A stretch of 64,000 nucleotides of DNA from Arthrobacter sp. NicSoilB4 (GTDB taxonomy: Bacteria > Actinomycetota > Actinomycetes > Actinomycetales > Micrococcaceae), in NCBI RefSeq assembly GCF_019977335.1, contig NZ_AP024653.1:1984001-2048000 (forward strand), given 5' to 3'. The notes beneath the pieces are model-generated. The model did not search any database. It saw only the letters and a list, made by a program, of their open reading frames with translations, and had not been told where the DNA came from. Below, in pieces: positions 5,518 through 61,482 of this stretch (within the stretch, counting starts at the first letter, position 1; each line of letters begins with the position of its first letter). A program made the translations under genes and the position numbers.

Positions 5518-6993
5518 ATGACCATCACCTCAACCGAGAAGCCCGGTACCCCCGTAGTCGCGATTAACGACATCGGTACCGCTGAGGACTTCCTCGCAGC
5601 AGTCGACGCCACCATCAAGTACTTCAACGACGGAGACCTCGTCGAAGGTACCGTCGTCAAGGTCGACCGCGACGAAGTTCTGCTCGACATCGGTTACAAG
5701 ACCGAAGGTGTCATTCCCTCCCGCGAGCTGTCCATCAAGCACGATGTTGATCCCGGAGACGTCGTCTCCGTTGGCGATCTCGTCGAAGCCCTGGTGCTCA
5801 CCAAGGAAGACAAAGAAGGCCGCCTGATCCTCTCCAAGAAGCGTGCTCAGTACGAGCGTGCCTGGGGCGACATCGAGAAGGTCAAGGAAGAAGACGGTGT
5901 CGTTACCGGTACCGTCATCGAGGTTGTCAAGGGTGGTCTTATCCTCGACATCGGTCTGCGCGGCTTCCTGCCCGCATCCCTCGTCGAGATGCGCCGTGTG
6001 CGCGACCTTGCTCCGTACATCGGTCAGCAGATCGAAGCCAAGATCATCGAGCTGGACAAGAACCGCAACAACGTTGTGCTGTCCCGCCGTGCCTGGCTCG
6101 AGCAGACCCAGTCCGAGGTTCGCTCCACGTTCCTCAACAAGCTGGAAAAGGGCCAGGTCCGTCCCGGCGTCGTTTCCTCCATCGTCAACTTCGGTGCCTT
6201 CGTGGACCTGGGCGGCGTGGACGGCCTCGTTCACGTTTCCGAGCTGTCCTGGAAGCACATCGACCACCCGTCCGAGGTTGTCGAAGTTGGCCAGGAAGTC
6301 ACCGTCGAGGTCCTCGAGGTCGACCTGGACCGTGAGCGTGTTTCCCTGTCGCTCAAGGCTACGCAGGAAGATCCGTGGCAGACCTTCGCCCGCACCCACG
6401 CCCTCGGGCAGGTTGTTCCGGGTAAGGTCACCAAGCTGGTTCCGTTCGGCGCGTTCGTTCGCGTTGAAGACGGCATCGAAGGCCTGGTCCACATCTCCGA
6501 GCTCGCCGTGCGCCACGTTGAGCTGGCCGAGCAGGTTGTCTCCGTTGGCGACGAGCTGTTCGTCAAGGTCATCGACATCGACCTCGAACGCCGCCGCATC
6601 TCGCTGTCCCTCAAGCAGGCCAACGAGGGCGTCGACGCCGAGTCCACCGAATTCGATCCGGCTCTCTACGGCATGGCCGCAGAGTACGACGAAGAGGGCA
6701 ACTACAAGTACCCGGAGGGCTTCGATCCGGAGTCCAACGAGTGGCTTGAAGGCTACGAGACGCAGCGCGCCGCCTGGGAGCAGCAGTACGCTGACGCCCA
6801 GACCCGCTGGGAAGCCCACAAGAAGCAGGTTGCCCAGCACGCTGCCGACGACGCTGCAGCTGCAACGTCCGGCGAGAGCGACTCCGGCACCACCAGCTAC
6901 TCCTCCGAGCCTGCTGCAACCGAGACCGGTGCAGGCACGCTTGCTTCGGACGAGGCTCTCGCAGCACTGCGCGAGAAGCTGACCGGCAACTAA
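5518..6993 (+). CDS. rpsA: 30S ribosomal protein S1
   Basis: The 491-residue protein contains four S1 RNA-binding domains, at about residues 35-105, 120-192, 208-280 and 295-366. The GLVHVSELSW and GLVHISELAV repeats mark domains 3 and 4. This is the four-domain actinobacterial form, shorter than the six-domain E. coli protein. The C-terminal 120 residues are acidic and Ser/Thr/Ala-rich and likely disordered. S1 binds mRNA and recruits it to the 30S subunit. The gene uses more T-ending codons (GTT, GGT, CGT) than its neighbours, as expected of a highly expressed ribosomal gene. It has its own promoter and long leader and ends at two terminator-like hairpins. Confidence 0.97.
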   Translation: MTITSTEKPGTPVVAINDIGTAEDFLAAVDATIKYFNDGDLVEGTVVKVDRDEVLLDIGYKTEGVIPSRELSIKHDVDPGDVVSVGDLVEALVLTKEDKEGRLILSKKRAQYERAWGDIEKVKEEDGVVTGTVIEVVKGGLILDIGLRGFLPASLVEMRRVRDLAPYIGQQIEAKIIELDKNRNNVVLSRRAWLEQTQSEVRSTFLNKLEKGQVRPGVVSSIVNFGAFVDLGGVDGLVHVSELSWKHIDHPSEVVEVGQEVTVEVLEVDLDRERVSLSLKATQEDPWQTFARTHALGQVVPGKVTKLVPFGAFVRVEDGIEGLVHISELAVRHVELAEQVVSVGDELFVKVIDIDLERRRISLSLKQANEGVDAESTEFDPALYGMAAEYDEEGNYKYPEGFDPESNEWLEGYETQRAAWEQQYADAQTRWEAHKKQVAQHAADDAAAATSGESDSGTTSYSSEPAATETGAGTLASDEALAALREKLTGN

Positions 6994-7026: not shown

Positions 7027-7062
7027 GCTTGGCAGTTGCCAGCTTGAAGTAGCACCGTAAAG

Positions 7063-7092
7063 GTGGCCGTCCCCTCGGGGGCGGCCACTTTT
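7063..7092 (+). terminator. rpsA rho-independent terminator
   Basis: GTGGCCG (7063-7069) pairs with CGGCCAC (7082-7088), with an inner CCCC/GGGG extension, and is followed by TTTT. It is the classical terminator of the rpsA transcript and marks the left limit of the palindromic repeat array. Confidence 0.85.
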
Positions 7093-7099
7093 CATTTAA

Positions 7100-7610
7100 G
7101 GACATGTCCAGTTGGGGACATGTCCAGCGGGCGCCCCTCTCCTGGGGACATGCCCATCGGCGGGTACCACACCCACGGGACATGCCCATTCCTGGGCGCG
7201 GCCACTGGACATAGAGGCAGTATGTCCAGTCCTGGGCCCGGACCTGGTGCATGCCCAGTTTTCCCGGGCTGCCTGAACCGAAGCCGGGGAGCATGTCCAG
7301 GCCACCGAGACGCCGCGTCCACGGGACATGTCCAGTGGTTCGCCGGGTGGATGGGCAGGATGGGTCTATGTCCATTGGTTGCGCGCAGGAGTGGGCATGC
7401 CCGGTTGGGACCGCGGTGGCCAACGTGGGACATGTCCAGTGGTTCGCCGGGCGGATGGGCAGGATGGGACTATGTCCATTGGTTGCGCGCAGGGGTGGGC
7501 ATGCCCGGTTGGGACCGCGGTGGCCAACGTGGGACATGTCCAGTGGTTCGCCGGGCGGATGGGCAGGATGGGACTATGTCCATTGGTCGCAGCCAGGAGG
7601 GGGCATGTCC
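7100..7610. repeat. Array of CATG-centred palindromic repeats (cluster 1)
   Basis: A gene-free block between the convergent rpsA and GNAT genes, dense in 10-bp dyads of the form GGRCATGYCC. Perfect palindromes GGACATGTCC occur at 7100, 7116, 7324, 7428 and 7532, and GGGCATGCCC at 7393 and 7497. Asymmetric variants occur at 7146, 7178 and 7601, and degenerate ones near 7247 and 7289. A larger inverted repeat, ACTGGACATA with TATGTCCAGT and a 7-nt loop, occupies 7204-7230. The same building blocks recur at 61150-61480. Open frames cross it in several phases, but their products are only Gly/Pro/Cys/Trp repeats translated from the palindromes, so I do not call genes here. Confidence 0.9.
7323..7587. 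repeat. 104-bp tandem repeat, about 2.5 units
   Basis: Units begin at 7323, 7427 and 7531 with exactly 104-bp spacing. Each has GGGACATGTCC, then CAGTGGTTCGCCGGG, a TATGTCC half-site about 45 nt into the unit, and GGGCATGCCC about 70 nt in. The first two units differ at only a few positions, and the third breaks off after its TATGTCCATTGGT. The near identity points to recent duplication within cluster 1. Confidence 0.95.
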
Positions 7611-7622
7611 AGTGGCGGGACC

Positions 7623-8147
7623 TCAGCGGAGCGGAATCCTGGCCTTGACTGGAACCGCGGCGTCACCGGAGGCCTGGCCCTCGTCCAGCGTGGCGCCGGC
7701 GGAACGCAGGAGGACCAGGGCTGCGGTGTTCCCGGCTGTGGTGTCGGCTTCCAGCACCGCAGCACCGGACGCTGCGGCCCGGCCGATAACGAGGCGAAGG
7801 GCCTCCCGTGCGATTCCCTGGCCACGGAAGCTGCGTCCGAGCCAGATTCCGGTTTCCAGGGTGCCTTCGCCGGTCCGCTTGAGCCGGATGGATCCGGCCG
7901 GCTTCCCGTCGCAGCTGATCGCCCAGCTCTTTTGCTGCGCCGGCCCGTCGAGTCCCGCCGCAGCGTGGTGGTATTCCCGGAACCAGCTGATCCGTTCAGA
8001 ATTCCAGCCGGCGGCACTGCCCAGCGGAGGCGTCACCTCGTCGGCGTCGGCGTCCTGGATCGCGAGGGTCAGCAGCTGCTCCAGGACCGCCTCGGAGACG
8101 TCCACGAGCCGGACCGTGGCAGGGGAGTGCTCAGCTGAGGGGGACAT
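7623..8147 (-). CDS. GNAT acetyltransferase, RimJ/RimL-like
   Basis: A 174-residue protein that starts at MSPSAEHSPATVRLVDVSE; longer upstream starts would intrude further into the preceding gene. It contains the GNAT acetyl-CoA loop in GIWLGRSFRGQGIAREALRL, followed by VLEADTTAGNTAALVLLRSAG, typical of the RimJ/RimL-like branch that acetylates N-terminal residues or small amines. The start overlaps the end of the upstream YigZ-like gene by 17 nt, so the two are translated from one message. The stop lies 13 nt from the last palindrome of the repeat array. Substrate unknown. Confidence 0.85.
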   Translation of the reverse strand: MSPSAEHSPATVRLVDVSEAVLEQLLTLAIQDADADEVTPPLGSAAGWNSERISWFREYHHAAAGLDGPAQQKSWAISCDGKPAGSIRLKRTGEGTLETGIWLGRSFRGQGIAREALRLVIGRAAASGAAVLEADTTAGNTAALVLLRSAGATLDEGQASGDAAVPVKARIPLR

Positions 8148-61149: not shown

Positions 61150-61482
61150 GGACATGCCCATTCCTGGGCGCGGGCGATGGGCATACCGGGGTTATGTCCA
61201 CCCGTCACGCTCAGGGGAGCGCATGTCCAGTGGTCCTACGGCTTCGGAGCCCAGACCCGCCCGATGCCACGGGGGGGACATGCCCATTCCTGGGCGCGGG
61301 CGAAGGACATACCGGGGTTATGTCCACCCGTCACGCTCAGGGGAGAGCATGTCCAGTGGTCCTACGGCTTCGGAGCCCAGACCCGCACGAAGCCACCGGG
61401 GGACATGCCCATTCCTTGGCGCGGCCAGTGAACATACTGGGCTTATGTCCACCCTCCACACTCAGGGGAGCGCATGTCCCCC
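61150..61482. repeat. Array of CATG-centred palindromic repeats (cluster 2), 125/126-bp units
   Basis: Three units begin with GGACATGCCC at 61150, 61276 and 61401 (spacing 126 and 125). Each continues with ATTCCTGGGCGCGG (ATTCCTTGG in the third), then a 7-bp inverted repeat with a 7-nt loop: GGGCATA/TATGTCC 61179-61199, GGACATA/TATGTCC 61305-61325 and GAACATA/TATGTCC 61430-61450. Then come CTCAGGGGAG and GCATGTCC. The first two units also share TGGTCCTACGGCTTCGGAG. The same module is found once in cluster 1 (7178-7230). It fills the gap between the convergent thiolase and ecfT genes. No gene is called inside it. Confidence 0.93.

Follow-up and report, generated by a model that had tools for sequence, protein, structure and literature searches.

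A dispersed element with REPIN-like hairpin symmetry in the intergenic regions of one Arthrobacter clade

The CATG-centred palindromes that form two clusters in a 64,000-nucleotide stretch of the Arthrobacter sp. NicSoilB4 genome (hereinafter the window) are the ends of a larger, ~89-bp element with the consensus CCGnG-GGACATGYCC-n18-TGGRCATA-n7-TATGTCCA-n18-GGRCATGTCC-CGYGG. We estimate the probability at about one half that this is a lineage-specific, REPIN-like single-strand-hairpin element that would have been spread by an enzyme other than a RAYT and is now largely fixed and conserved.

Architecture of the element and its arrays

The CATG palindromes are located at both ends of a 79-bp core, with the end starts 69 bp apart in nearly all copies. 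Conserved flanks, CCGnG preceding the left end and CGYGG following the right end, add five bases apiece and extend the core to ~89 bp, with terminal inverted repeats of ~15 bp (CCGnGGGACATGYCC). The consensus right end GGGCATGTCC is the reverse complement of the left end GGACATGCCC, each falling short of perfect palindromic symmetry. At the exact centre of the core, TGGRCATA-n7-TATGTCCA forms a second stem, the 7-nt loop of which contains a conserved GG.

The geometry of the element is tightly constrained: across all fetched loci, adjacent ends are spaced by 69 bp in 323 cases, the other recurrent distances being 32 (118 cases), 29 (95), 33 (37) and 35 bp (29), an inner spacer of 9 is found in 245 of 273 cases, and the distance between the inner and outer centres is 34.5 bp. 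End sites spaced by 29 and 32 bp recur across many genomes. In another Arthrobacter (locus L065:1343-1571), the left end together with a part of its arm recurs by itself at intervals of 31-32 bp, for five consecutive spacings that are followed by a complete element.

Within cluster 1 (7100-7610), exact GGRCATGYCC sites number ten (five GGACATGTCC, two GGGCATGCCC, two GGACATGCCC and one GGGCATGTCC), in agreement with the first-pass annotation, which had listed at least ten dyads; the whole window contains 14 such sites compared to 0.55 expected from shuffles. The block is gene-free, as had been claimed, with rpsA ending at 6993 and a GNAT-like gene on the minus strand ending at 7623, and the fixed register of the sites is real as well: four copies of the 79-bp core start at 7178, 7324, 7428 and 7532, the left and right ends of each starting 69 bp apart, and the copies from 7324 onward form a 104-bp tandem array. 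The repeat unit itself had to be redrawn: the dyads are present, but the true unit is the ~89-bp element with its central stem rather than the 10-bp dyad. Similarly, the larger inverted repeat that had been noticed is found at 7172-7228 / 7352-7408 but arises from comparing neighbouring near-palindromic elements. Altogether, the window holds seven complete elements in two arrays, four in cluster 1 and three in cluster 2 (Table 1). We rejected the possibility that the cluster 1 array is coding: long ORFs cross it, but the 104-bp unit is not divisible into whole codons, and no gene is called there by the coding model, the gene calls being those of a simple in-house script.

Table 1. Elements, solo end sites and the terminator-like hairpin in the window (window coordinates)
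Feature	Coordinates	Strand	Basis and remarks
Intrinsic-terminator-like hairpin and T-run after rpsA	7062..7092	+	Sequence reading; array starts 8 bp downstream
Solo end site GGACATGTCC	7100..7109	.	Motif scan; outside complete elements
Solo end site GGACATGTCC	7116..7125	.	Motif scan; outside complete elements
Solo end site GGACATGCCC	7146..7155	.	Motif scan; outside complete elements
Complete element 1	7178..7256	+	Right end degenerate (GTGCATGCCC); apical stem-loop 7206-7228
Solo degenerate end site GAGCATGTCC	7289..7298	.	Sequence reading, repeat family D4; outside complete elements
Complete element 2	7324..7402	+	First unit of the 104-bp tandem
Complete element 3	7428..7506	+	104-bp unit 97% identical
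Complete element 4	7532..7610	+	
Cluster 2 element	61150..61228	+	Thiolase-like / CbiQ-like convergent gap
Cluster 2 element	61276..61354	+	
Cluster 2 element	61401..61479	+	18-bp overlap with the predicted CbiQ-like gene end

Genomic placement and phyletic distribution

Genome-wide, GGRCATGYCC occurs at 207 sites compared to 14 for the reversed pattern, and thus the motif is not of random frequency outside the two loci, an outcome that the first-pass annotation had envisaged as fatal to its proposal. A sequence-only model combined with a position-weight scan yields about 63 elements in ~31 gene gaps of this genome, none of them inside a gene, with overlaps of ~18 bp at predicted gene ends; in a multispecies set of 353 distinct elements, the overlap with a gene never exceeds 40 bp. 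The gaps that hold elements are enriched between convergent genes (11/18) and depleted between divergent ones (4/28).

Within the sampled order, all carriers are members of Arthrobacter. In this genus, the element is present in 34 of the 101 sampled species, including A. oryzae, A. humicola, A. bambusae, A. silvisoli and A. celericrescens, with at least 44 matches in most carriers and zero in each of the other 67 species. The carriers cluster on a small tree in which a single non-carrier (G020, locus L137) is nested among them, reflecting either loss of the entire family or failure to acquire the element. A contig labelled as a Ramlibacter MAG also holds an element (locus L263) and is probably a mis-binned Arthrobacter contig.

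No match to the element was found in phage, plasmid and viral collections, and no Rfam covariance model matched within the window. Among the papers listed in literature searches, the matches were p53 sites and unrelated sequences, and no bacterial repeat with this motif was present. The description of the family as undescribed therefore stands with respect to Rfam, these sequence collections and the bacterial-repeat literature found.

Conservation in place

The arrays are additions: in most carriers, the rpsA gap measures about 450-950 bp, compared to about 85-230 bp where the element is absent, and the short gap of the non-carriers also ends in a terminator-like hairpin. Among 234 foreign loci, 149 have at least one flanking gene in common with a locus that is occupied in this genome, and 83 have both flanks in common, implying that most of the insertions are old. 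Between orthologous copies (middle class), the arms are ~35% different and the stems 8% different, with the stems and the length of the element kept.

When two of the three sites are required to be intact, the third one is also preserved, without loss of register, in 480 of 487 cases (both strands counted), and in a permissive collection from this genome alone, the third site matches at least 8 of 10 positions in 72 of 73 cases; the loci were fetched for good copies, which inflates the apparent conservation, and the third-site tests lessen this bias. These results argue for selection in place that appears to act on both the sequence and the length of the element. The slowness of this decay implies that either an enzyme continues to use the element or the element has a putative role for the host at gene ends.

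Covariation of the ends and the central stem

For the dense symmetric sites, the first-pass annotation had suggested either binding of a dimeric protein or hairpin-rich DNA or RNA. We compared these readings using 43 elements that are less than 70% identical and gap-free over 89 columns. When the 20 end columns are read as a single left-right stem, the covariation is 0.168 compared to 0.116 in shuffled alignments (0/500), with 15 double changes compared to 6.1; when the same columns are read as two independent palindromes, the respective values are 0.109 and 0.113 (324/500). The terminal and apical stems together reach 0.199 compared to 0.149 in the shuffles (0/500), far above every slid register; the shuffles leave relatedness in, whereas the slid registers and the head-to-head contrast between the two readings have equal relatedness. 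In this covariation analysis, the left and right ends are thus shown to behave as the halves of one predicted terminal stem. Because the ends covary jointly and not as separate palindromes, the dimer-site reading is disfavoured, whereas the hairpin alternative gains support from the stem covariation.

The arms follow a different pattern. The 18-nt arms show weak covariation among the 43 elements (13/500) and none in strict register among 63 and 171 elements; thus, conservation covers the base and the apex of the hairpin, and in the middle, it concerns mainly the length. Replacing the right arm with that of another element leaves the fold energy unchanged (p = 0.73), any arm of the family folds better than a shuffled arm, and full-length symmetry stands out weakly among the registers.

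Constrained geometry could also be accounted for by a rigid double-stranded DNA scaffold with three sites, in which a clade-specific nucleoid or regulatory protein would bind GGRCAT half-sites in the ends and the centre, with its subunits touching across exactly 34.5 bp, and would organise the chromosome or insulate gene ends. Such a scaffold, which we regard as possible if rather doubtful, is compatible with the rigid spacing that persists while the arm sequence drifts, with the recurrence of extra solo ends at the discrete distances 22-23, 29, 32-33, 35 and 42-43 and with the bias of the elements toward convergent and away from divergent gaps. It is at odds with the ends covarying with each other rather than within themselves, with the asymmetry of mismatches between the top and bottom strands, and with the conserved central GG, an asymmetric feature that a symmetric dimer site would not need.

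Strand asymmetry, transcription and replication

The two strands of the element are not equivalent. The top strand folds with an energy of -42.3 kcal/mol compared to -37.7 kcal/mol for the bottom strand, and its mismatches include G.T and A.C in the proportion 200:100, where the ratio expected from composition is 1.36. Individual copies were also compared with their shuffles: element 1 folds with z = -4.3 both as DNA and as RNA, whereas element 4 outperforms the shuffled sequences when folded as RNA (z = -3.4) and does not when folded as DNA (z = -0.6), the latter result counting against the favoured reading.

The strong predicted RNA folds (z from -3.4 to -8.9), the tolerance of G-U pairs on one strand and the location of elements downstream of genes would all fit a role in RNA, with the elements acting as structured stretches of transcripts (3' ends, attenuators or small RNAs). 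We consider such a role unlikely given that, in co-directional gaps, the direction of the element shows no link to that of transcription (38 same and 50 opposite, p = 0.24), that several copies reside in divergent gaps and that there is no match in Rfam.

The orientation relative to replication is biased. The chromosome carries dnaA, recognised from its protein sequence, at the start, and a likely dif site, CCGATAATCAACATTATGTAAA, at G000:C1:2130586-2130607 (locus L312), ~82 kb past the end of the window, with counterparts in the four other genomes tested; this site likely sets the replication terminus. With these landmarks, 77 of the 107 clusters from five genomes have the better-folding top strand in the template of the lagging strand, which is exposed in single-stranded form; the clusters are not independent in that some loci are common to several genomes. 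Taken singly, two of the five genomes show a significant bias, namely, this genome (p = 0.02) and G070 (19:3, p = 0.0009), with the caveat that, for G070 as well as G050, the origin was set opposite dif, which is an approximation. The apical half-site of the element, TTATGTCCAGT, was considered as a XerD/dif-like sequence, with TTATGTCAAGT taken as the arm of an actinobacterial dif; the likeness to the real dif is weak, and this reading was dropped.

For the hairpin element that we favour, the following scenario can be proposed. A clade-specific endonuclease or recombinase distinct from RAYT would recognise, or would have recognised, the element in its folded single-stranded form, with the lagging-strand template at the replication fork as the most likely source of that form. 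The spread of the element would have resembled that of REPINs, and at present, it probably moves only rarely. Targeting of the lagging-strand template has been described for IS200/IS605-type enzymes (PMC6006769).

Search for a mobilizing enzyme

REPIN-type repeats are considered to depend on RAYT transposases. The RAYT domain (Y1_Tnp, PF01797) was detected in none of the 31 genomes searched, whereas 5 of the 14 control genomes gave a signal, and we accordingly rejected a RAYT-driven REP. The integron integrase (TIGR02249) was also absent above the cut-off in all 31 genomes, the weak matches being to tyrosine recombinases in general, and the identification of the element as an integron attC site was discarded on these grounds. 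The Y2 transposase of IS91-like elements (PF04986) gave 0/31, but the control genomes were silent too. Neither a GTAG nor a CGTC tag is found beside the ends, where the flank consensus is that given above. Among the flanking genes listed, which look housekeeping, no transposase was recognised, and 62 isolated elements showed no convincing excess of flank repeats over the control that would indicate target-site duplication. Nor was any excision event seen. At one locus (L090:7917-8156, minus strand), there is a predicted 80-aa, secreted-looking peptide with IGNWPDPM-type repeats.

These observations bear on the possibility that the element is a conventional MITE, that is, a deletion derivative of an insertion sequence encoding a DD(E/D) transposase and having matching terminal inverted repeats. 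The element is short, non-coding and multi-copy, and its ~15-bp terminal inverted repeats are of the type expected for a MITE. Nevertheless, with target-site duplications not convincingly above the control, no transposase recognised among the listed neighbours, no plasmid or phage copy, and a central stem at the exact midpoint for which a MITE has no need, we find such an origin improbable, even more so than a role in RNA.

A more specific version of the favoured reading, in which a new, non-RAYT class of enzymes specific to one Arthrobacter clade would maintain a REPIN-like single-strand-hairpin element, with a central recognition stem that is absent from known REPINs, is put forward here as a tentative proposal. 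The sharp pattern of presence and absence, with 34 carriers among 101 species and a non-carrier nested among them, suggests that the missing factor can be found through gene content.

Comparison with known repeat systems

Integron attC sites are imperfect hairpins with conserved boxes at the base and the apex and variable arms. The Arthrobacter element is likewise an imperfect hairpin in which the base and the apex are conserved and the arms are variable; unlike attC, it comes without gene cassettes and, in the 31 genomes, without an integron integrase above the cut-off. The fit of GGACATGTCC to the consensus of the p53 response element (RRRCWWGYYY) is a coincidence, p53 being a eukaryotic protein.

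REPs are 20-50 nt palindromes preceded by GTAG (PMC8266576). The Arthrobacter arrays resemble enterobacterial BIMEs and REPs in consisting of palindromic units located in gene gaps, but differ from them in sequence, in the lack of TnpA-REP and in the ~89-bp size of the unit. A survey of REPs includes one Arthrobacter genome, at least in a table row of counts (PMC12306157).

The greatest similarity is to REPINs, the REP doublets of Pseudomonas (Bertels and Rainey 2011), in which the inverted ends are 71 bp apart in the case of the GI REPIN (PMC3116915). Both consist of two conserved inverted ends at a set distance (69 bp in the Arthrobacter element), separated by a less conserved spacer of constrained length, and both are predicted hairpins that are intergenic and occur in tandem clusters. 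Compensatory changes are common in REPINs (PMC3116915) but weak or absent in the arms of the Arthrobacter element, which also differs in having a third stem, located centrally and with GG in its loop, and in lacking the RAYT (0/31 genomes) and the GTAG or CGTC tag. Thus, the REPIN is the closest known kind, although membership fails on a defining feature, the RAYT. If a conserved family with the REPIN architecture (69 vs 71 bp) resides in an actinobacterial clade where RAYT is not detectable, then either another class of enzymes is able to drive elements of this type or selection by the host is sufficient to maintain them.
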